This document shows, one piece after another, positions 93-41,014 of a stretch of 45,830 nucleotides of DNA; the first letter of the stretch is position 1; each line of letters starts with the position of its first letter. The notes under the pieces were generated by a model. That model saw nothing but the letters and a program-made list of their open reading frames with translations, was not told the origin of the DNA and made no database searches. Origin of the DNA: an uncultured Gammaproteobacteria bacterium (GTDB lineage Bacteria; Pseudomonadota; Gammaproteobacteria; Arenicellales; JAANXG01); contig CAMYKK010000028.1 in NCBI GenBank assembly GCA_947258975.1, positions 1 through 45,830 on the forward strand, written 5' to 3'. The position numbers and the translations under genes were made by a program.

Positions 93-1457
93 CTAGTCCA
101 CCGCGGCCGCCATTTTGGCGCGGCCGACCGTTTCCGCGGTTGGGTCCGCATGGCCGGCAGCGGGGGCCTGGGGCATAAGCACCATCAACACCGCGCCCAC
201 CAGGCAAGCAGTGCCGGCGATGATGAACGGGATCATCCAAATACCCGGATCGACAGCACCCGCAGCCGCGTCCTTGAATGCTCCGGCGAGCAGCGGTCCA
301 GCAATGCCGGCGACACCGTAGGCGGTAAATAACCAGCCGTAATTAGCGCCGACGTTTTTGTTGCCGAATAAATCCGCCGTGGCCGCCGGGAACAACGCAA
401 AGTTCCCACCGAAATTGAAGCCAATCAAGGCCGCCGCAAGGATGAAACCATGCACCGCTCCCACGTGAATGAATCCATGATAAATAAGCAACATGACGAG
501 TCCCTGGCAGGCGGTCATGAGCACGATAGCGGTTTTGCGGCCGAGGTGGTCGGAAAGTCCGCCCCACAGGATGCGGCCGAGGCCGTTGAAAACTGCATAC
601 CAAGCCATGGCAGTACCGGTTATGGCGCCGACCCCAGCAACGCCGCGGTCGCGCAGGATGTCGGTGCCGAACAATTTGATGCAGTAAATCACCATGAGTC
701 CCGCCAAGGCGGAGCAGACGAACACTATCCACAGCATGTAAAACTGAGGGCTGCGCAACATCTGCCGCGGCGTGTAGTCGAGTCTGCCGCTGACGGCGGT
801 GGCGGCCCGCTGCGGTGGCGTCCATCCCGTTGGCGTATAGTCGTCGGGCGGGTTGACCATGGTCAGACTGCCCACCGATACCAACACGAAGAACGCGAGG
901 CCATACAAGACAAATACGCTTTGCACACCAGGGAGACCGAAGATACTAAGGGTGTCCAGGAGTCCACCAAACCAGGAGCCGGCGAGTTTCACCCATATGA
1001 CGGCCCCGAACCCGAATCCGGCGACCGCAAGACCGGTGATCAGCCCCTTCTTGTCGGGGAACCATCTGACGCCGACGGCAATGGGTACGATATAGGCCAG
1101 GCCGACACCGGCCCCTCCCATCACACCGATGAACATGAACTGCGCCCAGAAGCTGGCGCCGAAGACACCGCCCAGGACGTACCCAAGGCCCAGCGTTACG
1201 CCTCCCGCCAGGGCGACGATCGCAGGCCCTAGCCTTGCCTGTAACCTGCCGGCCACTATCATCATGACCGCAAACGTCGCCAAACAGGCTGAGAAGATCC
1301 ATGCCGTTTGGCTGGCGGAGAATCCGTACGCACCCTGTGGATCGGTAAGCGCCCCAGTGAACACCGACCAGGCATAGATTGCGCCCAGTGCGAGTTGAAT
1401 CAGAACCGCGCCCGCAACCACCCACCAGCGATTGAATGTGCTTCTGTTTACTGTCAT
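93..1457 (-). CDS. OFA-family MFS transporter (oxalate/formate antiporter-like)
   Basis: A 12-helix major facilitator of 454 residues. The N-terminal part has the OFA-type signature: GAIYAWSVFTG in helix 1, then SASQTAWIFSACLATFA, the loop RLQARLGP, and RWFPDKKGLITGLAVAGFG after helix 4. The second half repeats the fold, with LSDHLGRKTA in the helix 8-9 loop. Family members exchange small mono- or dicarboxylates (oxalate, formate, lactate) across the inner membrane; the substrate here cannot be read from sequence. The open frame extends 15 codons further upstream, but the ATG at 1457 has a GGGGGA ribosome binding site immediately before it, so I chose it. It is transcribed alone and its neighbours do not indicate a substrate. 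Confidence 0.9.
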   Translation of the reverse strand: MTVNRSTFNRWWVVAGAVLIQLALGAIYAWSVFTGALTDPQGAYGFSASQTAWIFSACLATFAVMMIVAGRLQARLGPAIVALAGGVTLGLGYVLGGVFGASFWAQFMFIGVMGGAGVGLAYIVPIAVGVRWFPDKKGLITGLAVAGFGFGAVIWVKLAGSWFGGLLDTLSIFGLPGVQSVFVLYGLAFFVLVSVGSLTMVNPPDDYTPTGWTPPQRAATAVSGRLDYTPRQMLRSPQFYMLWIVFVCSALAGLMVIYCIKLFGTDILRDRGVAGVGAITGTAMAWYAVFNGLGRILWGGLSDHLGRKTAIVLMTACQGLVMLLIYHGFIHVGAVHGFILAAALIGFNFGGNFALFPAATADLFGNKNVGANYGWLFTAYGVAGIAGPLLAGAFKDAAAGAVDPGIWMIPFIIAGTACLVGAVLMVLMPQAPAAGHADPTAETVGRAKMAAAVD

Positions 1458-1814
1458 CTGTCCCCCGAGTTGTGCCGGCTGATCGAACCGTCTTATCGAC
1501 AAGGTCTACGGGAACACCCGTCGCACTCATGACCCGCGCCCGATGCGTCAGACATAGGCGTTCGAAACGATATGGTGTTACCCCCAGTAGCTATCGGCGC
1601 ACGCGCATATTGCTTTACTTATAAATCAATCATAGACGACAAAAACCTGCGTCGACGACCGCCAATATCGGTACCAGCAGTCTGTCGAACTGAGGACAAA
1701 TCTACTGCGGCGGCGGGAAAGTCGGCCCACGGTAAAGATTTCTCTCGTTACATAGCTCGCAGTTCGCCTCCATAAATCGCCGCACCGGTCTCGATTTCCG
1801 ACCCGCCTCGCTAC
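1458..1814. other. Intergenic region, nothing recognised
   Basis: About 350 bases between the start of the MFS gene and the terminator palindrome of the GDSL gene. It must hold the MFS promoter on the minus strand. I see no convincing gene, RNA or repeat in it. Confidence 0.5.
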
Positions 1815-1912: not shown

Positions 1913-2899
1913 TTAATCGAGTTGAGCGAGGTGAAGCGGGCTTGCGGTGCCGGAAGCCAGCATAGCGGGTAATGCCTGCGCTACCGCTCTCGCGAAAGCG
2001 TGATGGATCACCCGCGTGGGATGGATACCGTCCCAATATGCGTATTGATCTGGATGGGTGCAGACAGCCCGTTTGCGTACTCCGGGCGTGATACACGAAT
2101 CCGTCGTATTTACCACTCCCTCGGGTGGTGAAGCGGCAATGCCATTGGTAAATGAAAATACATCGAAGGTCATGATCTCAATGCCCGGCGGCAGGAACCC
2201 CAATGCACCAGCCAATGCATCGTTGAACTGGGACGACAGGAACTGCGCCAGTGCCTGCGCATCGGGACCTTGGGCGCTCACCGCGGGAACTAATCCAACG
2301 TTTGGTGCATTCATGATGAGCAACTTTCTCGCACCGGCTTCGGTCAAATCCGAGATACTTTGGATAATCGCCAGCACCGCATCGTTGAGAATAGTTAAAC
2401 TGACATTCGGATCGCTGGGGTATGCGACGACGGCGTCACGGATGTCGTTACCCCCCACAAACACGATGTAAAGTGTGTCCGGATCCGCTTTCTCGAAATC
2501 CGTAAGGTACTGCGCGACGAGCCCCGGAAGGTCAAAGGGCTGACCCGGTCTCTGTCTTGCTCTGGCGCTTCCAAAAGCGTAGTTACAGAAACGGCCGGAT
2601 CCACGAAACGCCGGTTTGGCGTCTTTAGCGCGCCCCAACGATTTTGCGAAGTGCTGAATCCACGTGCGGCCGTTGCTGAATGTTGGCCCCCCTCGGGGAT
2701 ATGGGGCCGATGGAATCAACTCGTAGGGCCGCGTGGACACCTCGTGAACCACTGCAAACACGTTACCGGTATCGGACAGGCTGTCGCCGAAGATACAAAG
2801 TTTTGTAAACGAGGTCTCGGCAAACGCCCGCCCCGGCAGCAGGATAACGACGAGCAGAATTGCCGATAATAATGATTGGTTTCGTAATAATCGTTTCAT
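1913..2899 (-). CDS. Exported SGNH/GDSL hydrolase (esterase/lipase)
   Basis: A 328-residue secreted hydrolase. Residues 1-27 form a signal peptide ending GRAFA. Block I is FGDSLSDTGN with nucleophile Ser40; block III is GGNDIRD; the C-terminal catalytic pair is Asp290 and His293 in YWDGIHPT. This is the layout of the plant-type/autotransporter GDSL family that hydrolyses ester bonds of lipids or polysaccharide side groups, here without a C-terminal beta-barrel, so the product should be periplasmic or released. An AGGAG ribosome binding site precedes the ATG by 9 bases. The gene is monocistronic and ends at a clear terminator palindrome. Substrate unknown. Confidence 0.9.
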   Translation of the reverse strand: MKRLLRNQSLLSAILLVVILLPGRAFAETSFTKLCIFGDSLSDTGNVFAVVHEVSTRPYELIPSAPYPRGGPTFSNGRTWIQHFAKSLGRAKDAKPAFRGSGRFCNYAFGSARARQRPGQPFDLPGLVAQYLTDFEKADPDTLYIVFVGGNDIRDAVVAYPSDPNVSLTILNDAVLAIIQSISDLTEAGARKLLIMNAPNVGLVPAVSAQGPDAQALAQFLSSQFNDALAGALGFLPPGIEIMTFDVFSFTNGIAASPPEGVVNTTDSCITPGVRKRAVCTHPDQYAYWDGIHPTRVIHHAFARAVAQALPAMLASGTASPLHLAQLD

Positions 2900-2920: not shown

Positions 2921-3507
2921 TTAATGAAATACTGGACTCACTGAGCTCCGCATCGGATAGACAGCAAACACTTTTTGCGCGTGCTCGTTTGCAAAGGCTT
3001 TCAAACTTCGTGCCAAGTTACCGTAAGCCACGCCGGTGTTGCCTTTCGGCGCGATCGGCGCCATTGCAACGCAAAAATGTGTGATCTCCCGATCGACGAA
3101 ATCGTGTGAAATGTGTGACAGGAGTGTGGCCAGGACAGGTGACGGATCGCCAGTCGAAGTAATGAGATGCAAACGAAAAAAAAAAGCGAACCCGATTCCG
3201 GTGGCGTTTCGGACCTCTCCGACACCGGTCGACTGCCCACAATTCGTGTCCGGTGGGGACAGGCGCGTGACTGCGCGTCGCTCGTTGCCGACGAAACCGG
3301 TACGGAACACGCAAGATGATTCTCCAATGCGTTCGTCGCGCCTGTTAAATTTGCAGTCGCAGCCTCCCGCGACAGCGCAGACAATGCATAGCGACCTCTC
3401 AGCAGACGTTCCTTTAATTTGCGCCGGTCCTCCCTGTCGGAGAGGTGCACAAACACAGCTAGTTCACGGCTCGAGAGATTCATTTGTACATCCTCCTGTA
3501 TCAACAA
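2921..3507 (-). pseudogene. Possible frameshifted gene remnant around a 10-A tract
   Basis: No intact gene is recognised between the GDSL and AAA+ genes. Two minus-strand frames contain protein-like sequence: an N-terminal piece starting at 3507 with a charged helix (SDREDRRKLKERLLRGRYAL) and a C-terminal piece ending at 2921 with LITSTGDPSPVLATL and AFANEHAQKVFAVYPM. They lie in different frames, and a run of ten A at 3176-3185 lies near where they could meet. This may be a decayed gene or chance reading frames; I do not recognise the family. Confidence 0.2.
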
Positions 3508-3691
3508 TTCGTACTGCCGCAGTGGGCATCTGCCACCGTTTATCCAGTCTATTTATCAAGTGCCCTGCCAACCAAGACGTGAAGTAATGACCCACAAAAG
3601 ACGTTGCCTTATCAATACGCTGAAACAAACCGTTGGTTAAAGGTGTGAATTTGTGTTAAGGAAGTTGGTGTGACACGTGTGAGGACACGGT

Positions 3692-6241
3692 GTGGCGCAC
3701 AGAGGGACTTTACACAGCACAAGATTTGGCAAAACGGGCCCGCTGATACTGGGATCGATCTCCGCGGTTTTCGTTTTGCTGGTTTTTATACCGGTCACCC
3801 ATAACACCTACCTCATCGGGTTCCACGGTAAGTGGCAGAACGAGAGCTTCGTCGTCACGTCGATCGAGCGCAACAGCCCGGCACAACTGGCCGGGTTTCG
3901 AGTCGGCGACGTCGTATCCAGACAGGACAACAACTCAACGGACCAATGGCGCCAGTGGTACCGGTCTGATTTGCGGGCTTATCTGAACAACCGATATCAA
4001 CTGCGCGACACCGACGTCGCCTACGAGGTCAACCGGGATGCCGGCCCGGTTTCTCTCAGACTCACACCAAGGCCATTGAGTGTTGCCGAGTGGTGGGTCT
4101 TTTACGGATTCCGGACCGTCTTAGTGCTGGTTTTGTTGGGGCTCGTCGTGTACATCATCGCCTCGAGATCGAGGGAGCGCTATGCCCCTTTGATTTGCCT
4201 TTGCTTCGGTTTTGCGGTGCTGTGGCTATCCTGCGACGACCCCTTTTGGCCGTTGTTCTATTCTCCGTTGATTCGCGGGGCCACATTCCCGCTAGTCAAT
4301 ATCGTCGACTTACTCGAAATCCTGTTTTTACAGGTCGTAATGAGTATGCTGGTGCATATCAGCCTGCTCTTTCCCGAACGCCGCCCGATTCTGCGGCGAT
4401 ACCCGAGGCTGCCGATTCCCCTGTATGTCCTGTCCATTGCCATCCCACTATTCGCGATGATGTTTCCGGACGGTGGGCTACCCAACAAAATTGCCGCAGC
4501 CTATGCAACACGATTACCGCTCGATACGGTGCTGCTCGTGTTGGCCACGTCTTTGTTGTTCGTCGGTTATCGGCATTGTCGTTCCCCCTCTCAGCGCGAA
4601 CGGGCGCGTTGGATCATCGTCTCGATGGCGCTAGTCGCCGTGTCGCACCTGGTGTTCTGGAACCTTCCCGTCATGTTGTTAGGCCATCCGCTGATACGCC
4701 GCTACGACTGGTTATTAGTACCGGTGGCGTTGTTCCCGCTCTCTATGACCCTGTCCATCACCAACCATGAGCTGTTTGGTGTGCGCGGTATTATCCGCGG
4801 CCGTATCAAGCTGCTCCAAACATTACTGGCAAGAGCAAAGAAGGCGGTGGTGCAGCGCGACCAGCGGATCCGTGATATGACCCAGGAGCTCGGTCAGTTG
4901 ACCGTGGAACTCGAGGAGTACGCGTTAGCGGAACGGGCGGGAGAAGGACCGGCGGGCACGACCCCCAGGCTGAGCAAGTTGGAGGCGCGGTTTCCGCAGC
5001 TTAGAGAGATTCGAGAGGACACGTTGATCAGTGTCAGTAAGCTCTGGGAGGACGTGTTCGAACAAGCCGCGGTGGCGGCGCGCGGCGCCGCACCGGTGAT
5101 GATCGTCGGCGAGTCGGGAACCGGCAAGACGCATATCGCGCAGGTCGTCCATCTGCTGAGCGATCGCAGCGAGCAGATCTGCAAAGAGATCAGCTGCGCC
5201 CAATTCGAGCATGCCGATCCCGCCTTCGCGCTTGGCAAACTGTTCGGCGTGGGGGCCGGGCACGGCCTGTCCAACGTGCCCAAGGAGGGGCAAAGCGGTC
5301 TGCTGGAAGAAAGCGACGGCGGTACGCTATTTCTCGATGACTTTGATCGACTGCCCCTTAACGTGCAGGACCTGCTGCTATACCCCCTCGAAGGCAAACC
5401 GTTTGAGCCCGGGATTGGCCGCGGGCAACCGCGCACTGCATCGGTCAAGTTCATCTTTGCAACCAATCGTGATCCGGCGCGGCTGGTATCAGAAGGAAAA
5501 TTTCAAGCGGATGTTCTGGCGCGCATCGGTACGCGGGTCGACGTGCCGCCGCTGCGTGAACGGCCCGACGACATTCCGCTGCTCGTGGAGCATTTCACAG
5601 ACAAAATCTGCAAAGAACTCAAGCATGATATTTCCGTGGTCTCGCCCAAGGCCATGCACTTATTGAGCCGGTATTCTTACGCAGGGGGAAACGCCCGCGA
5701 ACTCATGGCCGAAATTCACAAGGCAATCGGCAAGGCGATGCTGGAAGATGATAGTGTCTTGCGCGCCGGGTATTTGTCGGAAAAGCTGCGCGTTGCGACA
5801 ACTGCGTGCCGTAAAACGGTGGCTGCGGTGCCAACAGCGCCTCTCGCACCGAGTACCGCGAAGGGTGAGATTGGCGCATCCGCAGAGCCGAAAGAGCTCG
5901 CTACCCTGCAAAGACACCGGTTTCAAATCAAACCCGCCGAAGAAGAGCTGGGATTCAGCCATAAATCACGCACATTATCCAACCACTTGAGAGGACTGTG
6001 CATAAAGGCCTTGAGTGAAAACGACTGGGGTCTGGGCCGCGCCGCCCGGTCGCTTTCCGGAGCGGCGGATCCGAAAATCGTGGCTCGAATCGAAGGAAAG
6101 ATGCGGCGGTATCTGAAAAACATAGAAGATCACGTGGGTAATCACTCCGAGAGCAAGTTGTACAACAATCTGCCCGCGGCGTATCACGAGCCCCTAGCAA
6201 AAGCGATACGCCGGGTTCGAACCGCGCGTAAGACGCCTTAA
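3692..6241 (+). CDS. Membrane PDZ/AAA+ protein resembling a sigma-54 activator but without GAFTGA
   Basis: An 849-residue protein. A first membrane helix (about 17-37) is followed by a PDZ-like segment (ERNSPAQLAGFRVGDVV, about 65-85), then roughly seven membrane helices (135-365), a coiled coil, and a cytosolic AAA+ domain: Walker A GESGTGKT near 473-480, Walker B GGTLFLDDFD near 543-552, then LRERPDDIPLLVEHF and GGNARELMAEI. Where sigma-54 activators carry GAFTGA this protein reads FGVGAGHGLSNVPKEGQSG, so the sigma-54 contact loop is absent. The C-terminal 100 residues contain a helix-turn-helix-like stretch (SENDWGLGRAARSLSG). The start is a GTG with GAGGA 6 bases upstream. It is probably a membrane-anchored regulator or remodelling ATPase that does not open sigma-54 promoters. 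Confidence 0.85.
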   Translation: MAHRGTLHSTRFGKTGPLILGSISAVFVLLVFIPVTHNTYLIGFHGKWQNESFVVTSIERNSPAQLAGFRVGDVVSRQDNNSTDQWRQWYRSDLRAYLNNRYQLRDTDVAYEVNRDAGPVSLRLTPRPLSVAEWWVFYGFRTVLVLVLLGLVVYIIASRSRERYAPLICLCFGFAVLWLSCDDPFWPLFYSPLIRGATFPLVNIVDLLEILFLQVVMSMLVHISLLFPERRPILRRYPRLPIPLYVLSIAIPLFAMMFPDGGLPNKIAAAYATRLPLDTVLLVLATSLLFVGYRHCRSPSQRERARWIIVSMALVAVSHLVFWNLPVMLLGHPLIRRYDWLLVPVALFPLSMTLSITNHELFGVRGIIRGRIKLLQTLLARAKKAVVQRDQRIRDMTQELGQLTVELEEYALAERAGEGPAGTTPRLSKLEARFPQLREIREDTLISVSKLWEDVFEQAAVAARGAAPVMIVGESGTGKTHIAQVVHLLSDRSEQICKEISCAQFEHADPAFALGKLFGVGAGHGLSNVPKEGQSGLLEESDGGTLFLDDFDRLPLNVQDLLLYPLEGKPFEPGIGRGQPRTASVKFIFATNRDPARLVSEGKFQADVLARIGTRVDVPPLRERPDDIPLLVEHFTDKICKELKHDISVVSPKAMHLLSRYSYAGGNARELMAEIHKAIGKAMLEDDSVLRAGYLSEKLRVATTACRKTVAAVPTAPLAPSTAKGEIGASAEPKELATLQRHRFQIKPAEEELGFSHKSRTLSNHLRGLCIKALSENDWGLGRAARSLSGAADPKIVARIEGKMRRYLKNIEDHVGNHSESKLYNNLPAAYHEPLAKAIRRVRTARKTP

Positions 6242-6429
6242 TCGGGGCGCCGTCTGATGACCTGGTCCACCCATTCATACAAACGAGCGGTTAACGGCAG
6301 ATCTGAATTCAGCGGCGTCAGTTCCAAATGATTTTTTGTCACCAGCCAATAATCCAATGCACCCGGCTCCAACGGCTCAAAATGCACCCGTTCCCAATGT
6401 TTGAACGAGCGGGGACAAGGAAAACCCAT
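6238..6429 (-). CDS. Small hypothetical protein, possibly a gene fragment
   Basis: A 63-residue minus-strand frame with ordinary amino-acid composition (HWERVHFEPLEPGALDYWLV, then LYEWVDQVIRRRPD). Its stop overlaps the end of the AAA+ gene by four bases in convergent orientation. Its 5' half overlaps, antisense, the start of the depolymerase remnant, so both cannot be fully functional. I do not recognise the family; it could be the C-terminal end of a larger gene lost by deletion. Confidence 0.3.
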   Translation of the reverse strand: MGFPCPRSFKHWERVHFEPLEPGALDYWLVTKNHLELTPLNSDLPLTARLYEWVDQVIRRRPD

Positions 6430-7169
6430 CTTATCTATCCTGTGATCACGACTTTACTATCTTTGCATTTATTGATTGGCGCCCTGGCCTTCACCGCCTC
6501 CCCGGCGATCGCAGACAACCTGTCACTCAAGGAGCTGGGGACGAAGCTGAAAATCAACTCACAGCAGATCTCGGTGTCAGGCATCTCTTCGGGTGCTTAC
6601 ATGGCCATGCGATGATCACCGACGACTTTGGCGGTGCATGCGTTGTCTATGAGCCGCCGTACGTTAACAATTGCGGCTTTGATGCCGCAAAGGAGCTGTT
6701 ACAGCACATTTACGGACCCCTCAACCCAAAGGCCTCACCGGCAGACACGCAGTCGATCATAGAGTTCGACCAAACGGAATTCTTTGACGACAACGATAAA
6801 AGCATCAGCATGAACAGGCGTGGTCATATCTACGTGCCGCAAAAGTGCGCGGAAGGTGAATCATGTCGGCTACACGTGGCCTTTCACGGATGCCAACAAC
6901 ATCAAGAGCTGATAGGCGACGATTTTTATACCGGCTCGGGCTACAACGACTGGGCGGAAACGAATAACATTATTGTGCTTTATCCTCAGACGACGGCGTG
7001 GGCGGATAACCTATTTCTGGCGTTGTGGAGAAACCCAAAGGCATGTTGGGATTGGTGGGGTTATAGTGGCACTCGCTATTACCGAAAGGACGGCAAACAA
7101 ATCAAAGCGCTGGCAGAAATGATTAACACGCTCGTTGGCAAAGAACTTCTGGCACCTGGCGACGGCTAA
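6397..7169 (+). pseudogene. PHB depolymerase-like gene with central deletion and frameshift
   Basis: The first part encodes a signal peptide (GALAFTASPAIA) and the start of the mature enzyme up to SGISSGAYMAM, the nucleophile motif of secreted poly(3-hydroxybutyrate) depolymerases. It then stops at 6615. The rest, in another frame from 6612, encodes the C-terminal half: GHIYVPQKC, HVAFHGCQQ, YNDWAETNNIIVLYPQT and ACWDWWGYSG, which are hallmark blocks of the same family. The stretch of roughly 100-150 residues expected between them is missing. An internal deletion that also changed frame explains this best, and the product would be inactive. The original start is unclear; ATG at 6397 or GTG at 6442 are candidates. 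Confidence 0.75.
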
Positions 7170-8369: not shown

Positions 8370-8729
8370 TTAATCTTCAAAACCATTAGAGAAGAGTGCA
8401 ACCGGTGCCGTGTTCGTGTCATACACCGGGGGTATATCCGCACCCGTCACGACACCCAATGGTTGATAATCGGCATAACCCGGGAATATGGTGCCGAGAT
8501 ACGCGTTGTGCATCCGCCGTATCAGTATCTCACTCAATATGTGGCGAAAATCCGTGGTTACTTTGATATCTTGACCTTCAAACAATTGGTCGTTCCTGAG
8601 TCCCGGCCAGTCGCCATAGATCTTACTACCGTTCACCGATCCGCCAAGGACGAGGGTGTCCGCCCCGTAGCCGTGATCGGTCCCATGGTCTGCGTTTTCG
8701 CGCAAACATCGGGAGAATTCGGTTTTCAT
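8370..8729 (-). pseudogene. C-terminal fragment of a DUF1501 protein
   Basis: The 119 codons encode only the last third of a DUF1501 (sulfatase-like fold, Tat-exported) protein: TEFSRCLRENADHGTDHGYG, LVLGGSVNGSKIYGDWPGL, KVTTDFRHILSEIL, and the ending PVALFSNGFED. Full family members are usually a little over 400 residues, so about 300 are missing at the N-terminus. DUF1501 genes normally follow a DUF1800 gene, as here, but this fragment is joined directly to the end of the broken DUF1800 gene in another frame. The product would lack the N-terminal export signal. Confidence 0.75.
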
Positions 8730-10193
8730 CAGCTTCCCTGATCAACCAATTCAATATCCGCCATGTCATCACCATGGCATTGGTCCCCTGCCACACCGCC
8801 CGGATATCCGGGTAGCCATTGGGCGGTCCCCAGGAATATGGATAGTGGCCGGTGTTGTCAAACAGCCAACGAAACGTGTTTGCGTCATCATCGCCCAACT
8901 TGAGCGTGATATCGGCTTCGCAGGCGCGCATCGCGCTGACCACAGTTTCAAATGGCCGTTTAATTTTTTCTCCCCAGGTGTTTTGGAATTCCGTCGACAG
9001 CACAATATGACGCACCACCTTTTTGAGCTGATCGGGTGCTTGCCAGTGGTCATGAAAAATCTGGGCAGCGGAAAACACGATGGATTCCGGTGGATCATCC
9101 GCAATTAACCGCCGGCATAACTTACGGCATATGAAAGTTGCTGTGCCCGGATGTTCGGCCAACTTGTCCAACACATCGTGCCCGTCTTTCAGCTCACTTT
9201 GGTCCGCTGGAAAAAACTCTCCCAGAACGTATTTCTGGAATCGATCATGCCAGTAGTCCCGATAACGAAAAATGCCGGTATCCGGGTCGCCCGGATCCGA
9301 CCAGTGACCATTCGCAACACTCCACCCGGTAAAGCAGCGCGCGATTTCCAATACATCGCCTTCTACATAGCCGAAGGGCCGTCCATCGGCACCTCCCATT
9401 GCGGCGTAACACCGAGATAATTTTCTGCTCCGATGGTATGCAGCTCGCATAGTTCCCGGGCGTAATTTTCATTCGGGCCGTCATCGCTGCTGTCTACGTT
9501 ATCCAGGTAATACAGCATCGCGGTGCTCTTTGTATTGGCGTCCAACATGTCGCGGAAATTCCCTAACACGTGCGGGCGGATGACATCGCGATCATAATGC
9601 ACCCAGACTGCAGCCATGGGCATGTCCCAGGAATAGACGTTGAAATGGTTGTGCCAAAAATCGACAAGCACCTCGACCAGTTGCCGGTTGCTATAAATCG
9701 CCTTCACAAACGCCGCATATTGGGTCTCCATGGCTGGGCGTATGCGCTCCTGCCACGGTAGATTTTCCGCTCTGTAGTGTTCCGCCCATAATTGCTGGAG
9801 CGTTTTGTTGAGGGTCATGTACGCCGGGTCGGCAAGGCGGACATTGAGTGCGGAGTCGTCAATACTGGCAGGATCAAGTTGCTGATCAACGAATGCGGTA
9901 AGACGGGAGATATCATCCGGCCCCAAGTCGTTAAATGCGTCGATGTCGCCCGGACGCGGTCCGAACGCAATGCGATTATGAGCGATCACCCCAAGAGGAG
10001 GTGTGGTGATTATAGAAGCCGCCGCGCCCCGGGTTTGAGCGGCGGACGACGTGTTGTGTCGTCGATATAGAGCAGGTGCATACACGGGCAGGATTGGATC
10101 GTTCCGCCCTTCGTTTGGAACAGCCAAAAAACCCGCGTCTTCCAACTGCTTTGTTAATTTCCGACGATTCTCCTGGTGACTGCCTAAACGCAT
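8730..10193 (-). pseudogene. DUF1800 gene, frameshifted and 3'-truncated
   Basis: The N-terminal 270 codons (frame starting ATG at 10193) read HNRIAFGPRPGDIDAFNDLG, LVDFWHNHFNVY and ARELCELHTIGAENYLGVTP, all typical of DUF1800. The expected continuation ADGRPFGYVEGDVLEIARCFTGW is in a different frame, so a single-base indel lies near 9380-9390. That frame continues through FICRKLCRRLIADDPP and the block around WGPPNGYPD to WRILNWLIREA, then runs into DUF1501 sequence at about 8725-8740. The tail of DUF1800 and the head of DUF1501 have been deleted together. DUF1800/DUF1501 pairs are exported proteins of unknown function. Confidence 0.8.
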
Positions 10194-26767: not shown

Positions 26768-29700
26768 TTATGGGAATCGTGTAAGTGGTTGCGGACGACC
26801 AACCGCGTATCCCTGGGCATAATCGACTCCAATTTCTTGGAGCTTTCTTAATATGGCTTCGTTCTCTACGCACTCTGCGATCGTTTTCTTACCCATCACA
26901 TGACCAATATCATTGATAGATTTCACCATCGCCAGATCAATAGGGCCATCAAGGATATGCTTAACAAACACACCATCGATTTTCAGAAAATCCACCGCAA
27001 GGTTCTTGAGGTAAGCAAACGACGACAAGCCGCTGCCGAAATCATCCAGCGCAAACACGCAGCCGCGACCCTTGAGCATATTAATAAAACGGGTGGCCGT
27101 TACTAAATTTGCAATTGCTGCCGTCTCCGTCACCTCAAAACAAATATTTTGCGGTGAAATCTTTTTCTCTTTGAATTGGTCCATCACAAACGGTAGAAAC
27201 TCTTCATCCCCCAGAGAGCGCCCCGATAGATTGAGGGAAAGCAGGAACAAACGCCCGAGGTGTTCCGGATGGCTGGCGAGCCATGAAAACGCGGTACCGA
27301 TCACCCAGCGGTCTAGCTTGGTGGCAAGGTTATAGCGCTCGGCAGCTGCGAAAAAGACATCGGGCGGGACTACGTCGCCTTCTTTATCCTCCATCCGCAG
27401 TAGCAACTCATAGAAACCCGTTTCCGCGCCGGTGCCGGTGACCGGAGCAATGGGCTGGAAATCCAGATGAAAACGATCGTGTTCCAAGCTCTGTTCGATT
27501 CGGGTCGCGAGCTGCATTTCCCCATGACGCTTTGCCAGTTGCGTGTCGTCTTCATGGTAAACATGAATCCGATTACGCCCTGCGTCCTTGGCCGCATAGC
27601 AGGCGGAATCGGCGTCCTTTAGTACGTCTATTCCACTGTGCGAGTCTTTGTTGATGAGAACAAGACCAATACTGACACCGATGCTGAAACTCTTGTCCTC
27701 CCATCGAAACTGGAAGCCCTCGATCGCCTTGCGCAGGCTGTTGGCCACTCTTCTGGCTTGTTTGAGCGAGCAGCGCTCCATCAACACAGCAAACTCGTCG
27801 CCCCCAAGACGGGCCAAGGTGTCCCGCCTCCTGACCCGCTGATTCAAGAAACTCGCAAGCTGGTGCAGAAGCTCGTCCCCGGCAACGTGACCGCAGCTGT
27901 CGTTGACAACTTTGAACTGGTCTAGGTCGAAGTAACACAAGACGTGCTCGGTGTTCTCTGATCTGGCAGTCTCCAGCACCCGCTTCAATCGATGCTCGAA
28001 TTCCCGTCGATTGATGAGACCCGTCAACGCATCGTGGCTTGCTTGGAAGCTAAGTTGTTCCGAAAAATTGTGGGCCTCGGTGATGTCTTGAGCGGTTCCC
28101 GTCAACCGTATAGGCCGGCCATCACCAGCGCGCTGCAATTCCGCCTCCGCATGCATAAATCTTATCGCGCCATCAGGAAGCGCAATCCGGAAATCAATGC
28201 CAAAAGGACTGCCTCGAGAGGTCGTGGCTTTGAATTGTTCCTTAATGGATTCCCGATCATCTGGATGTGCCAGTTCAAGGAACGATTCGAAAGAAGACAC
28301 AATCTGGTCACGCGCCATGCCGAATACTCGGTACAGCTCATCGGACCAGTGCATCTCGTCGTTGATGAGATCCCACTCCCAGCTCCCCATATGGGCGATC
28401 CGCTGTGCGTCTACCAGCGACTTTTCGCTACTTTGTAACGCTTTGTCTGCGTGTTTGCGCTCGGTGATATCCTGCGTATGACCCATCAGCCTCGCGACGG
28501 TCCCATCGGCATTTCTAAGCGGCACGACACTGGATGCAAACTCATGCCACTGACCGTTGCAGATCGCAGTGTACTCGAACTCGGACGCGTGCCCTTCATA
28601 TGCGCGGCTTAACAACGCGGCGACCCGTTTACGATCCTCCGGAGACACAATATCTATATAGGCCACGCCAGCAATCTCCTCTTCTTCTTTGACACCCATC
28701 ATACGCAGGCCTGCACGATTCATAGTTAGCAAGCGTCCCTGCAGATCGATCTCGTGGACGCAGACCGGCGCGTTTTCGGTGAGCGCGCGGAATCGTTCTG
28801 CACTTTCCTGTAATGACTCTTCCAGTCGCTTTTGCTCGGTTCTATCAAAAAACGTCAGAATCGCTCCTACTGCGACTTTCTTATCCGAAAAGAACGGCGC
28901 AATCGTCAACCAATAAGTGTTCTGGTTTGTCGTGATTTCTTTCTGAGACATCGTTGCCCGCTCGATGACCTTCACGACCTCTTGACCAAGGTCGGGCAGG
29001 TGATTCTGCGATGTTAAGTCTGTCAGTACCGCGTCGACGCCTATCCTCGTCAGCGCAAAGAGGTTCGTTGCATCTGCGGTAAATCGCCGCACCCTCAACT
29101 GACTATCCACCACCAACAGCGCAAACCCAACATTATGTAGGATATTTTCTATGTCAGTATGTGCCACGATGAGTTCGGAGGATCGAATCTGAAGTTCTTG
29201 GTTAACCGTGGACAGTTCTTCGTTTGTGGACTGTAATTCTTCATTTGCGGTCTGTAATTCTTCATTAGATGAGTGCAACTCTTCATTGGTCGACTGCAGC
29301 TCCTCATTTGTCGCTTGGAGTTCCTCGTTGGTTGTCTCTAATTCTTCTATCGTCGTCTGTAAATACTCACGTGCCGTCGCGAGCTCTTGTTCGAGTTCCT
29401 GTACGCGTGGATCAACGACATTTGGTTCTGGCTCGAGCGCCGTTAACTCGGGAGTTTCAATGACTTTCTCTTCAAACGCTACCAGGATCAACTTTGTGTC
29501 GTCATTCGACAACACCGGAGTGGCCAACATACGGAACAGCTTGGCTGTATCACCATCGACCAACTGATGTTGTTTTCCATGTACAGGAATTTGGTCGCGA
29601 ATAGCCCTGTGCATCAATGACCGCAATTCCACTCGATATTTACTTTGCATCATATCTGCAATGCCTAGACCCGGTTCCCCGCTCGGCAGACGAAGATAGG

Positions 29701-31399
29701 GGCTCACGTCACCCCGTACAAAGACGATCTTCAAACGGTCATCGACAACCACGGCTTTAGGACCATAGACGTTCGCGATCGCCTGATTTGTCAACTCCTG
29801 GAGGTGGATTTCTTTGTTCGGAGCCACCGGCTTTTTATATGGCACGGGACGGTAGCGCCCCATCTGGCCGATGCCCACGTCTACTTGTTGCCTGTGGAAC
29901 GTCTCCCTTCTCTTGTAAATCTTCCATTTGCGATCCACCTGCGAAAATAAGCTGCTGAGCTCCCCGACGGACTCCGACCTACCAAGAAACAAGTAACCCG
30001 TGTCGTTGAGCACGTAATGAAACATAGACAGCAATCGGTTCTGCAAACGGGAGCTGAAATAGATCAACACATTACGGCACACGACGAGGTCCAGCCCTGA
30101 AAACGGCGGGTCACTTACCAGATTCTGCTTCGCGAATATGACCTTCTCTCTAATTGACTTGGTGACCTGGAAGGAATGATCGTCTGCTGTGAAGTAGCGA
30201 TCGAGGATACTCTTATCGATCTCTACGACGGTTGCTTCCGGATACGTTCCTCTACGTGCCACTTCGATGACTTTATCATCCAGATCGGTGGCGAAAATTT
30301 GAATGTTGCGCTCATCGAACTGCCCTCGTAACGTTTGTGCAAGAAGAATCGCGATCGAGTAGGCCTCCTCTCCCGTTGCGCATCCCGCTACCCAGAACCT
30401 GATACTATCTCCCGGCTTTTTCGCCTCAACGATCTTGATGAGGCATTTCGACAAAGCATCAAACGCATCCCGATCACGGAAGAAGCCGGTCACAGCAATA
30501 AGAATGTCCTTGCGTAGGCTATCCAACTCTTCAGGTGTTACGCGTAGATAGTGAATGTACTCCTTCAACGAGCCAATCTTACGTAATGCCATCCGTCGTT
30601 CAATCCGGCGATTAATCGTCGTTGATTTGTACTCCGAGAAATCACAACCCAACCGCTCCTGCAGCATGGCCACTATCGTTTGGACATTGAATCCTGCGTC
30701 GTCGGCAGGAATGGTCTTTTTGCCCAACTTCGGAAGCGCAACAATGGACGGTAGCGCCGGCCCCATTTTCTCCGCTGAGAGAATTAGGTCGACCAACCCG
30801 GTATTAATAGCCGCCTGCGGCATTCCGTTATATTTTGCGGTCTTAAGGTCTTGCACGATTGTGACTCCACCTTCAGCTTTGATGGCGCGAATTCCATGTG
30901 CTCCGTCCGAGCCTGTCCCCGAGAGAATAATGCCAACTGCTCTCTCGCCCTTTTCATTCGCCAGGGATGAAAAGAAATAATCTATAGATGGTTTGGGACC
31001 AAAAGAGGTAGTGGGTTTGCTTAGTTTGAAGCGGCCATTTGCGATGGCGATATGCCGGTCATACGGCGTGATAAAGATGGTTTTGGGTCTGATCCGATCA
31101 TTGTGTTTTACCTCCGCCACCTCCAACGCGGTGTCACGCGCCAGGAGCTCTCCCAGCACACTACGGTGTTTCGGATCGAGATGCTGCGCGACGACGCAGG
31201 CAACGTTGTCGAGCGTTGGTAAATGAAGAATCAAGGAGCGCAGCGCCTCCAAACCTCCTGCCGAAGCACCTATCCCAACAACAAAGAGGTCCTGGGCAGC
31301 AGCCGACTTCGTGGATTTTCTTCTGGCCGCCAAGGTCTTGCGTTTACCGGTAGGTTTGGCTCTCGACTGAGGGGATGCCTTCGAGGTATTTGGTGTCAC
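26768..31399 (-). CDS. CheB-CheR-coiled coil-PAS-GGDEF-EAL hybrid signalling protein
   Basis: A 1543-residue cytosolic protein. Domains in order: CheB methylesterase (about 35-230; GASAGG Ser, AQHLDP His, SGTGSDG Asp); CheR methyltransferase (about 245-510; AVTGFFRD, FWVAGCATGEEAYS, VCRNVLIYF); a region with PAS similarity; a heptad coiled coil of TNEELQ-like repeats (about 680-745); three further PAS-type segments (about 745-1110); GGDEF (LARLGGDEFAVL near 1195, signature intact); and EAL (YELLLR in place of EAL, FEVTETAA, ALDDFGSGLSS, KIDGVFV and AECVENEA, so the metal and catalytic residues look present). It may therefore methylate or demethylate a receptor and also make or break c-di-GMP. 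The start is GTG; the ribosome binding site is weak. No chemoreceptor gene is nearby. Confidence 0.92.
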   Translation of the reverse strand: MTPNTSKASPQSRAKPTGKRKTLAARRKSTKSAAAQDLFVVGIGASAGGLEALRSLILHLPTLDNVACVVAQHLDPKHRSVLGELLARDTALEVAEVKHNDRIRPKTIFITPYDRHIAIANGRFKLSKPTTSFGPKPSIDYFFSSLANEKGERAVGIILSGTGSDGAHGIRAIKAEGGVTIVQDLKTAKYNGMPQAAINTGLVDLILSAEKMGPALPSIVALPKLGKKTIPADDAGFNVQTIVAMLQERLGCDFSEYKSTTINRRIERRMALRKIGSLKEYIHYLRVTPEELDSLRKDILIAVTGFFRDRDAFDALSKCLIKIVEAKKPGDSIRFWVAGCATGEEAYSIAILLAQTLRGQFDERNIQIFATDLDDKVIEVARRGTYPEATVVEIDKSILDRYFTADDHSFQVTKSIREKVIFAKQNLVSDPPFSGLDLVVCRNVLIYFSSRLQNRLLSMFHYVLNDTGYLFLGRSESVGELSSLFSQVDRKWKIYKRRETFHRQQVDVGIGQMGRYRPVPYKKPVAPNKEIHLQELTNQAIANVYGPKAVVVDDRLKIVFVRGDVSPYLRLPSGEPGLGIADMMQSKYRVELRSLMHRAIRDQIPVHGKQHQLVDGDTAKLFRMLATPVLSNDDTKLILVAFEEKVIETPELTALEPEPNVVDPRVQELEQELATAREYLQTTIEELETTNEELQATNEELQSTNEELHSSNEELQTANEELQSTNEELSTVNQELQIRSSELIVAHTDIENILHNVGFALLVVDSQLRVRRFTADATNLFALTRIGVDAVLTDLTSQNHLPDLGQEVVKVIERATMSQKEITTNQNTYWLTIAPFFSDKKVAVGAILTFFDRTEQKRLEESLQESAERFRALTENAPVCVHEIDLQGRLLTMNRAGLRMMGVKEEEEIAGVAYIDIVSPEDRKRVAALLSRAYEGHASEFEYTAICNGQWHEFASSVVPLRNADGTVARLMGHTQDITERKHADKALQSSEKSLVDAQRIAHMGSWEWDLINDEMHWSDELYRVFGMARDQIVSSFESFLELAHPDDRESIKEQFKATTSRGSPFGIDFRIALPDGAIRFMHAEAELQRAGDGRPIRLTGTAQDITEAHNFSEQLSFQASHDALTGLINRREFEHRLKRVLETARSENTEHVLCYFDLDQFKVVNDSCGHVAGDELLHQLASFLNQRVRRRDTLARLGGDEFAVLMERCSLKQARRVANSLRKAIEGFQFRWEDKSFSIGVSIGLVLINKDSHSGIDVLKDADSACYAAKDAGRNRIHVYHEDDTQLAKRHGEMQLATRIEQSLEHDRFHLDFQPIAPVTGTGAETGFYELLLRMEDKEGDVVPPDVFFAAAERYNLATKLDRWVIGTAFSWLASHPEHLGRLFLLSLNLSGRSLGDEEFLPFVMDQFKEKKISPQNICFEVTETAAIANLVTATRFINMLKGRGCVFALDDFGSGLSSFAYLKNLAVDFLKIDGVFVKHILDGPIDLAMVKSINDIGHVMGKKTIAECVENEAILRKLQEIGVDYAQGYAVGRPQPLTRFP

Positions 31400-39121: not shown

Positions 39122-40954
39122 TCAACTTTCCTTTGGGATGCCAAACACTTTCATGCGGTAAGTGAGTGTAGACGGCTTTAACTCCAGTAACTCTGCTGCA
39201 CCGCCGCTGCCCCAGATTTGCCAGTCCGAGTGCCGCAGAGCTGCGAGCATGTTCGCTTTCTCCAATTCACGCATCTCCGACTCGGTGACGAATTCCGTTT
39301 TTCCTGGTGCCGCGCAACCGACCGGAACCGTGGTATCGATTTTGCCTGGCGCGGCAAGATTTAGGCGGGTCTGACCTGCCTTGGTCAGGATAACGGCGCG
39401 CTCGATTACGTTTTTGAGCTCGCGGATATTGCCTGGCCAGCGATGGTGTTGCAGGTTATTTGCCTGTTGTTTTGACAGACGCAGTGGAGCGCGCCCCAAC
39501 TCCGCGCAGGTGCGTTTGAGGAAGTGCTGGGCAAGTGGAGCGACGTCTTCGGCGCGCGCCCGCAGGGACGGCACTTCAATCGGAAAGACACTCAGGCGAT
39601 AGAACAAGTCCTCCCGAAAGCGCCCGGCATCAACTTCCGCTTCCAGGTCGCGGTTCGTGGCCGCCACAATGCGCACATCGACCTTGATCGTTCGATCCTC
39701 ACCAACGCGCTCGAATTCACGTTCCTGGAGTGCCCGTAATAACTTGCCTTGCAGGGTCAAGGGGATTTCGCCGACCTCATCTAAAAACACTGTTCCCCCG
39801 TCCGCCAGTTGCAGACGGCCGACGCGGTCGCGATGGGCGCCGGTAAAAGCACCTTTTACATGACCGAAAAACTCGCTCTCGAACAGATCCTTTGGGATTG
39901 ACGCACAATTGACTTTTACCAGGGGTTTTTCAGCACGGTTACTCTGCGCATGGATAGCACGCGCAACCATCTCCTTGCCAACACCGGACTCGCCGAGTAT
40001 CAGGACACCCGCGGGTGTTGCGGCTACCGCTTCGATCTGTGCGAGGGTGCGTTTTAACGCCGGACTTGTACCGATCATCCCGCCGACGTCAGACACCACA
40101 TTAATTTCGTCGCGCAGGTAATCTCGCTCCAGCTCTAGCTGCTCCTTTAAGTGCTTGATCTCCTGATACGCCGCTTCGCGTTGATGTTCGATCTCCTTAC
40201 GTTGGGAGATGTCACGAAATACAACCACGGCACCGTTGAGCTTGTCGTCCTGCCGGATCGGTGTGCTCGTGTATTCAACAGGCACGGGGGATCCGTTGGT
40301 ATGCCAGAACACTTCGTCATCGACACGATGTACCTCACCGTCTTTGAGTGCAGCGTAGATGGGGCATTCATCGCGGGGGTAAGGTGATCCGTCTGCACGG
40401 GAATGGTGGTGTACGTCATGCGCCGGTCGACCGATAATGTCTTCAGGTTTCCAGCCTAGAATCTGTGCTGTTGCGGCGTTACCGAAGGTGGTCCGTCCCT
40501 CGCAGTCCAGCCCGTAAATCCCCTCGCCCGCCGCATCAAGGATCAACTGGTGCGAGGTTTGCAAGCGCCGCAGTTCGCCCAATGTCTGGTTGAGTTCTTC
40601 GCCACAGGTGGCATCCAGTAACACCCAAGGCTGCTCGTGTGCCTTAGGTTGTACGCACCATGCGGACAACAGCCCCTCAGTGATACCGCTCTTTCCCATC
40701 AAGCTCACGGAACTTTCGTGCAGCGATGTCCCTTTGTGCAACAAATCCTTGAGCTGCCCCGGTAAATCAGACCTTTCAATCAGTGAGAACAAATCGGCAA
40801 GCTGTATTTCCAGCCCATGGTTACCCGCCAATCCCCCCGTTAATCCGAGGTGCTCGCGCCAACCCCGGCTGACATGACGACAAACGAGCTGCGCGTCCAG
40901 CGCCGCAAGCATTGTGGGTGCCTCCTGAAACAGCCAGGGGGAAATTTCGATCAT
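39122..40954 (-). CDS. PAS-AAA+-Fis sigma-54-dependent activator
   Basis: A 610-residue bacterial enhancer-binding protein. Residues 1-130 are a weak PAS-like input domain; a clear PAS domain follows (about 150-265; LILDAAGEGIYGLDCEGRTTF, HHHSRADGSPYPRDECPI); then a coiled linker and a complete sigma-54 AAA+ domain: Walker A GESGVGKE (about 320), GAFTGA intact (about 368), Walker B GGTVFLDEVGEI, and WPGNIRELKNVIERAV. The C-terminal Fis helix-turn-helix (WQIWGSGGAAELLELKPSTL) binds DNA. The start at 40954 is supported by GAGGAAA just upstream. It is divergent from the doxX operon, whose promoter has the -24/-12 form, so it almost certainly controls that operon. The inducer is unknown. Confidence 0.93.
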   Translation of the reverse strand: MIEISPWLFQEAPTMLAALDAQLVCRHVSRGWREHLGLTGGLAGNHGLEIQLADLFSLIERSDLPGQLKDLLHKGTSLHESSVSLMGKSGITEGLLSAWCVQPKAHEQPWVLLDATCGEELNQTLGELRRLQTSHQLILDAAGEGIYGLDCEGRTTFGNAATAQILGWKPEDIIGRPAHDVHHHSRADGSPYPRDECPIYAALKDGEVHRVDDEVFWHTNGSPVPVEYTSTPIRQDDKLNGAVVVFRDISQRKEIEHQREAAYQEIKHLKEQLELERDYLRDEINVVSDVGGMIGTSPALKRTLAQIEAVAATPAGVLILGESGVGKEMVARAIHAQSNRAEKPLVKVNCASIPKDLFESEFFGHVKGAFTGAHRDRVGRLQLADGGTVFLDEVGEIPLTLQGKLLRALQEREFERVGEDRTIKVDVRIVAATNRDLEAEVDAGRFREDLFYRLSVFPIEVPSLRARAEDVAPLAQHFLKRTCAELGRAPLRLSKQQANNLQHHRWPGNIRELKNVIERAVILTKAGQTRLNLAAPGKIDTTVPVGCAAPGKTEFVTESEMRELEKANMLAALRHSDWQIWGSGGAAELLELKPSTLTYRMKVFGIPKES

Positions 40955-40962
40955 GGTCTTTT

Positions 40963-41014
40963 CCTCAAGTATTTGAGGATTGCACCACAGAATATTGAGG
41001 AACACAAATATTTG
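40963..41014. promoter_or_regulatory. Candidate enhancer sites for the sigma-54 activator
   Basis: Three related elements lie in the divergent gap: CCTCAA-N4-TTGAGG at 40963-40978, AATATTGAGG at 40991-41000, and the palindrome CAAATATTTG followed by AT at 41005-41014. They share an ATATTTGAGG-like half-site in the same orientation. They lie about 50-100 bases upstream of the -24 element, a normal place for activator binding. The first overlaps the activator's own leader, so autoregulation is possible. Confidence 0.5.

Follow-up and report, generated by a model that had tools for sequence, protein, structure and literature searches.

The window analysed here comprises positions 1 to 45,830 of contig CAMYKK010000028.1 from an uncultured gammaproteobacterium of the order Arenicellales. 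On its forward strand it encodes an 849-residue protein in which a PDZ-like segment, eight predicted membrane helices, a coiled coil, a sigma-54-activator-type AAA+ domain and a C-terminal domain follow one another (Table 1). The L1 loop of the AAA+ domain has no GAFTGA motif and carries a different sequence in its place, and upstream of the gene lie two sigma-54-type promoters, each with an array of YCACAC repeats. The GTG start is uncertain; in the family alignment, the candidate ATG codons of the relatives lie ~8-10 codons further in.

Pfam places the AAA+ domain among sigma-54 activators: Sigma54_activat (PF00158) matches residues 446-613 (4.8e-31, 108 bits against a cut-off of 20.2) and AAA_lid_14 matches residues 622-704 (7.9e-14, 51.7 bits against 27). 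The same genome holds 18 stronger PF00158 matches, at 188-251 bits. The NCBIfam models for PspF, NifA and RtcR score 137-148 bits against the protein, far under their own cut-offs, and we therefore regard it as a member of the superfamily that is none of those named regulators. At the N-terminus, PDZ_6 (3.8e-4) and PDZ_2 match below the Pfam curated cut-off, and the family profile matches the PDZ domain of DegP weakly and in part (3e-5). The segment is thus reminiscent of periplasmic PDZ modules of the DegP/RseP type; unlike those proteins, this one has no protease domain that we could find. When hydropathy is averaged over the family, eight peaks pass a threshold of 1.3 and mark predicted membrane helices, at residues 24, 148, 173, 219, 249, 284, 316 and 348. 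Since the more basic short loops alternate between the two sides, the PDZ-like part is predicted to lie outside and the AAA+ domain inside; together, hydropathy and loop charge assign a PDZ-like stretch of ~105 residues to the periplasm and the whole chain beyond residue ~357 to the cytoplasm. A full-length AlphaFold model (three sequences) was set aside as unusable (mean pLDDT, the model's own confidence score, 36), and a model of the C-terminal domain was weak (pLDDT 65), with unconvincing best matches in Foldseek (E 0.79) and VIA-align (Z 5.4). An earlier note on this DNA, made from the letters alone, had described a protein shaped like a sigma-54 activator, with Walker A, Walker B and C-terminal AAA+ blocks, about eight membrane helices and an N-terminal PDZ-like periplasmic segment. 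That description agrees with the Pfam and hydropathy results, the PDZ matches remaining below cut-off, and with the presence of GESGTGKT, GTLFLDDFD and GNAREL in the protein.

A conserved loop in place of GAFTGA

A search of 60 genomes identified full-length homologues in seven genomes besides the window's own, at 81, 78, 76, 65, 57, 51 and 48% identity. Profile searches were then extended to 109 genomes of the order, of which ten matched and nine contained a full-length member (among them G083, not seen before); to a sample of the class, in which two of 369 genomes matched, the window's own included (G432 being new); to a sample of the phylum, in which the window's own genome was the sole match among 398; and to 56 genomes around G432, where only G432 itself matched. 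The class, phylum and G432-neighbourhood searches used a strict E-value limit of 1e-58, and the class and phylum searches scored the best two candidates per genome; they may therefore have overlooked members that are more distant. Within these limits, the family looks rare and patchy. The ten family-bearing genomes are G000 (the window's own), G001, G002, G003, G005, G006, G011, G017, G083 and G432. One further candidate, the Granulicella locus L011, looks like a chance match, as it sits opposite a 1090-residue open reading frame (ORF), and was rejected. When plasmids were searched with the loop region, the matches listed (15 of 537 records) were all from Enterococcus, at 40% identity, and are uninformative on such loops elsewhere.

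We compared the loop and the nucleotide switch of the ten distinct members (the window's protein and nine relatives) with those of 36 control sigma-54-type AAA+ domains from the same genomes, which are not fully independent, seven being orthologues of one regulator. In all ten members, the L1 region reads [LF]FG[VIL]GxGHGLxN[VA], whereas the controls have G[AS][FY]TGA in 35 of 36 cases and GAFTDA in the other. Profile alignment to NtrC1 pairs GAFTGA with GHGLPN of the profile, such that the Phe is replaced by Gly and the Thr by Leu, and puts the two extra residues of the loop downstream of GHGLPN. Walker B reads LDD in 10/10 members as opposed to DE in 36/36 controls; the switch position is Ser (followed by Cys) in every member and Asn (27), Asp (7) or Glu (2) in the controls; and Walker A ends GESGTGK[TS] throughout the family, with GKE or GKD in the controls. 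The sensor ATN, GN[AV]REL, Walker A and one arginine-finger position are retained in all ten. Because GxGHGLxN is identical in ten distinct members, the loop is not a product of chance or a sequencing slip, and we rejected artefact as its source. The alignment thus confirms the claim of the earlier note that GAFTGA is absent, and identifies GxGHGLxN as its substitute.

According to the available part of PMC7175178, L1 is raised by a switch made up of an Asn and the Glu of Walker B (E108 in PspF). That the loop, Walker B and switch are altered together makes it look as if the coupling was rebuilt rather than lost. In overall design, the family resembles enhancer-binding proteins of the NtrC/PspF/NifA type (PF00158), with which it shares the AAA+ core, Walker A, sensor I, GNxREL, the lid and a conserved C-terminal domain, as well as nearby sigma-54-type promoters with upstream repeats. 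Besides the loop, Walker and switch residues, it differs from them in having DVLAR or DLPAR for DLYYR, and eight membrane helices with a periplasmic PDZ-like part where they have a soluble sensor domain. It also resembles TyrR, DhaR, HupR, VpsR and the NtrC proteins of Rhodobacter capsulatus and Caulobacter, whose AAA+ domains belong to the same family and likewise lack a usable GAFTGA. Those proteins are described, in the portions of PMC3162934 and PMC10274813 available, as acting with sigma-70, the NtrC cases having deletions in L1; here, in contrast, L1 is lengthened and conserved, and sigma-54-type promoters adjoin the gene. In the literature searched, we found no membrane-bound or PDZ-bearing sigma-54 activator and no GHGL loop, which is no proof of absence.

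Sigma-54-type promoters and YCACAC arrays

In five relatives (G001, G002, G005, G006 and G017), the sequence TGGCACG-N4-TTG[AC][AT] faces a divergent gene in the intergenic region that this gene shares with the AAA+ gene. In the same five genomes, GTGTGR repeats lie between the promoter and the AAA+ gene and overlap its start region, as they do in the window. The position of the array over the gene's own start suggests autoregulation. Counting all members, promoter and array adjoin the AAA+ gene in seven of the ten genomes (G000, G001, G002, G005, G006, G017 and G432). In G003 they lie beside the lipase gene, two genes on, and in G011 only 197 bp of contig precede the AAA+ gene, with GTGTGA repeats still visible.

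The spacing of the repeats was analysed in 13 promoters from eight genomes, chosen because the arrangement had already been seen there. Twelve have three or four YCACAC copies on the promoter strand within 160 bp, and the promoter in G432 has two. In 2000 shuffles per region, the observed repeat number was reached in at most 0.6% for the twelve and in 7.6% for G432. Repeats start near -126, -113, -103 and -79 or -69 from the first base of TGGCACG, and both these positions and the gaps of 13, 9-11 and 25 recur across unrelated target genes. Copies on the opposite strand occur within 160 bp at two of the 13 promoters; the repeats are unidirectional, and CRP-type sites, which share the TGTGA core, were set aside for that reason.

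For an unbiased count, we took every TGGCACG-N4-TTGMW site (99) in 21 genomes and counted YCACAC in the 160 bp upstream. The eight family-bearing genomes contribute 67 sites, with zero repeats at 46, one at eight, two at one, three at four and four at eight; the 13 other genomes contribute 32 sites, with zero at 29, one at two and three at one. At least three repeats are therefore found at 12/67 sites in family-bearing genomes versus 1/32 elsewhere (Fisher p 0.056), or, outside the genus, at 4/22 versus 0/27 (p 0.035), and a narrower test for TCACAC at 30-90 bp gives 15/67 versus 0/32 (p 0.002), all of these p-values being generous, as the sites are partly orthologous. The narrower test misses G004, whose repeats are CCACAC, and three of its 15 sites may be accidents, having one repeat (G001:C21 and G011:C198) or two (G005:C133). 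Within the window's own genome (5.49 Mb), the pattern TCACAC...TGGCA-N6-TTGMW has four matches, and the reversed control none. Two of the four flank the AAA+ gene, one precedes a paralogue of the small-protein gene described below, and one has a single repeat. None of the eight other TGGCACG sites in that genome, with flagellar and response-regulator genes among those downstream (from translations that we read), has more than one TCACAC within 260 bp. Of the 25 matches that the 60-genome search gave in family-free genomes, we read 17, and all had a single repeat. G432 was found after the pattern had been defined, and its sole match, with two exact repeats, lies beside its homologue. Finally, the unbiased count revealed, besides the G004 array discussed below, an unlinked array in G017 (L224, on C605), which, with repeats at -110, -101, -92 and -67, has the usual geometry and precedes a gene that we read as encoding a glycine-rich lipoprotein-like protein.

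Each of the ten family-bearing genomes has one match to rpoN, and a second sigma-54 dedicated to the GHGLxN protein was accordingly rejected. With one rpoN per genome, a variant activator would have to share its sigma factor with the ordinary ones.

Neighbouring genes and the rest of the contig

The divergent gene upstream encodes, in the five relatives that share the intergenic arrangement, a small protein of 135-173 residues with an N-terminus that we read as signal-like; in the window, only a remnant is left. No Pfam or NCBIfam family matches these small proteins above cut-off. Across the 60 genomes, the small protein was found in seven, namely six of the eight that bear the family and G004 (a weak match, without an array), and was not found in the family-bearing G003 and G011. 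The window's own genome retains an intact, unlinked paralogue on contig C19. Three loci, L131, L134 and L135, are weak relatives of the small protein that form a second branch (FCERSPNGCLAFG) and have no array upstream. In G432, the divergent gene behind the sigma-54-type promoter (L120, on C105) looks, as read from the DNA, like a winged-helix (CadC-like) gene and not like the small protein.

A GDSL lipase gene also lies near the AAA+ gene in G001, G003 and G005. The G002 lipase gene is unlinked to the AAA+ gene and frameshifted, yet has kept its promoter and four repeats. In G001, G002 and G005, the contig of the AAA+ gene also encodes, at a distance of 7-20 kb, an ordinary regulator with GSFTGA. 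This regulator is present in G004 too, and lies on a separate contig in the drafts of G003 and G017.

Elsewhere in the window, an extracellular polyhydroxyalkanoate depolymerase gene (type 2) at 6328-7169 is split into two overlapping ORFs and looks decayed: the second matches profile positions 140-305 only, and the first matches no Pfam family. A DUF1800 gene at 8626-10193 on the reverse strand is likewise divided between two overlapping ORFs, which match successive stretches of the profile, as from a frameshift. The reverse strand also encodes an ordinary sigma-54 activator with a PAS domain and GAFTGA (39122-41005), which is the second PF00158 protein of the contig, and a 1543-residue CheB-CheR-PAS-GGDEF-EAL fusion protein (26768-31399). 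At the end of another contig of this genome, C39, a response-regulator gene lies behind TGGCACGATGGTTGCA. Its counterpart in G002 and G005 is just beyond a major facilitator superfamily gene that matches window positions 93-1502, so C39 and the window contig are probably neighbours.

Table 1. Positions in the window of the AAA+ gene, its parts, and the adjoining promoters, arrays and genes
Feature	Position	Strand	Basis
Membrane protein: PDZ, eight transmembrane helices (TM1-TM8), coiled coil, AAA+ (sigma-54-activator type), C-terminal domain	3692..6241	+	849-residue ORF
PDZ-like periplasmic segment, residues ~41-87, between TM1 and TM2	3812..3952	+	Pfam, profile match, hydropathy
TM2-TM8, residues ~139-357 (TM1, residues ~15-33)	4106..4762	+	hydropathy
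Walker A GESGTGKT, residues 473-480 (canonical relatives, GKE/GKD)	5108..5131	+	motif comparison
L1 loop GVGAGHGLSNVPKEG replacing GAFTGA, longer by 2 residues, residues 519-533	5246..5290	+	alignments
Walker B GTLFLDDFD, DD for DE	5321..5347	+	motif comparison
Candidate DNA-binding domain at the C-terminus, conserved (SHKSRTLSNHLRG...NDWxxxRAARSL)	5894..6136	+	family alignment
Array of 4 YCACAC repeats (GTGTGR on + strand), upstream of divergent promoter, overlapping AAA+ gene start	3643..3695	-	
Degenerate sigma-54-type promoter TGGCAGGGCACTTGAT facing remnant gene	3555..3570	-	
Remnant of divergent small-protein gene, last ~39 codons, two frames; intact in relatives	3347..3462	-	comparison with relatives
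Second array of 4 YCACAC repeats	3079..3129	-	
Sigma-54-type promoter TGGCACGAAGTTTGAA of lipase gene	3000..3015	-	
GDSL lipase, candidate target; N-terminus signal-like; PlaA-like, under the curated cut-off of that model	1913..2899	-	Pfam, NCBIfam

A candidate membrane-embedded sigma-54 activator

We propose, with a probability of roughly 55%, that the protein is a membrane-embedded, one-component sigma-54 activator with a non-GAFTGA loop that acts from the YCACAC arrays. Given the neighbouring sigma-54-type promoters and arrays and the single rpoN, this is the simplest reading of the locus. The periplasmic PDZ-like segment and the membrane bundle would sense something in the envelope, as the earlier note had suggested; for such a membrane-embedded segment this is a natural guess, with sensing itself predicted from the architecture. 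The signal would then pass via the coiled coil to the cytoplasmic AAA+ ring, a presumed ATPase. The C-terminal domain would bind the YCACAC copies, repeated in one direction and for the most part 50-130 bp upstream of the sigma-54-type promoters, as their linkage and recurrence suggest, and the ring would remodel sigma-54 RNA polymerase through GHGLxN and a rebuilt nucleotide switch. The apparent targets, which look directed to the envelope, are the small proteins with signal-like N-termini, the GDSL lipase and the glycine-rich lipoprotein-like protein of G017; the last of these, and a CDP-alcohol phosphatidyltransferase-like gene in G004, are possible further targets judging from their upstream sequences. 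That the GHGLxN loop, the Asp-Asp Walker B and the Ser switch are a second natural solution, replacing GAFTGA and the Glu-Asn pair, a machinery regarded as indispensable, at the same single sigma-54, is a reading that we consider close to evenly balanced, with the scales tipped slightly to doubt.

Several observations weigh against this proposal. The available part of PMC7175178 describes the Phe and Thr of GAFTGA, the Glu of Walker B and the Asn of the switch as important in model activators, and all of them are gone here. The C-terminal domain has no significant match to Fis-type domains in hhalign; NDWxxxRAARSL resembles the Fis-type pattern by eye only, with an hhalign probability of 2.1% against 0.8% for a reversed control. 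At the promoters of the genus and of G006, the -12 element reads TTGA[AT] and not the TTGC of the published consensus (TGGCAC-N5-7-TTGCT, as given in the part of PMC12316311 available). TTGC is present in G017 and G432, which have the same loop, so the -12 sequence is not tied to the loop. Nor is the match between arrays and protein perfect. The G083 homologue has neither array nor promoter at its locus, and the rest of this 83%-complete draft gave no match. G011 has no site with at least three repeats, its contig ending 197 bp before the gene. Conversely, G004, of the same genus, has a promoter with three repeats (L223, on C5; -109, -96 and -61) before the gene that we read as CDP-alcohol phosphatidyltransferase-like, and no full-length member was found in this draft, which is 86% complete. 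The gene may be missing from the draft or lost, or something else may read the arrays.

The GSFTGA regulator could be that true reader, since it is encoded 7-20 kb from the AAA+ gene in three genomes and is present in G004 together with the array. Our protein might bind the arrays without activating sigma-54, or ignore them, while a GAFTGA-bearing activator opens the promoters and the protein represses, gates or merely adjoins them. The loss of the GAFTGA, Glu and Asn residues would fit such a role, as would the 18 stronger PF00158 matches in the window's own genome. We nevertheless consider it unlikely, if a serious contender: Walker A, the sensor ATN, GN[AV]REL and an arginine-finger position are retained in all members, the loop is not a decayed one but a longer, novel sequence that is itself conserved, the array extends over the start of the AAA+ gene and lies between gene and promoter in five genomes, and the GSFTGA regulator is on a separate contig in the drafts of G003 and G017. 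Recruitment of sigma-70 polymerase at the arrays, in the manner of TyrR, HupR, VpsR or R. capsulatus NtrC, is suggested by the assignment of GAFTGA-less relatives to sigma-70 in the available portions of PMC3162934 and PMC10274813, and this also counts against a sigma-54 activator. We judge it improbable, as the arrays lie upstream of -24/-12 elements at a similar distance in several gene families, and the NtrC cases in those sources are deletions of L1, unlike the insertion with its own invariant residues seen here.

The earlier note had taken the missing GAFTGA to indicate a different remodelling target or another form of polymerase. An AAA+ ring that remodels something other than RNA polymerase, with the nearby promoters a coincidence, would account for the rewritten loop and switch and for the PDZ-like and membrane parts, and it fits G083, where the homologue lacks an array, and G004, where an array is present and the protein was not found. 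Comparison of the neighbourhood in relatives argues the other way. Promoter and array recur beside the gene, a conserved C-terminal domain stands where activators carry their DNA-binding domain, and a single rpoN serves each genome. Hence, while the absence of GAFTGA stands, the inference of another target is disfavoured, and we regard such a ring as very improbable.

A sigma-54 activator with a different loop would have consequences beyond this locus. GAFTGA has been used as a filter for counting proteins as sigma-54 activators, according to the part of PMC3162934 available; if our proposal is correct, that filter discards real ones. The coupling of ATP hydrolysis to movement of the loop could then be built from different residues, and the "glutamate switch" could be tested on a natural variant. 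For the bacteria that carry the family, a membrane-anchored sigma-54 activator with a periplasmic PDZ-like sensor would link the state of the envelope to transcription in one polypeptide.

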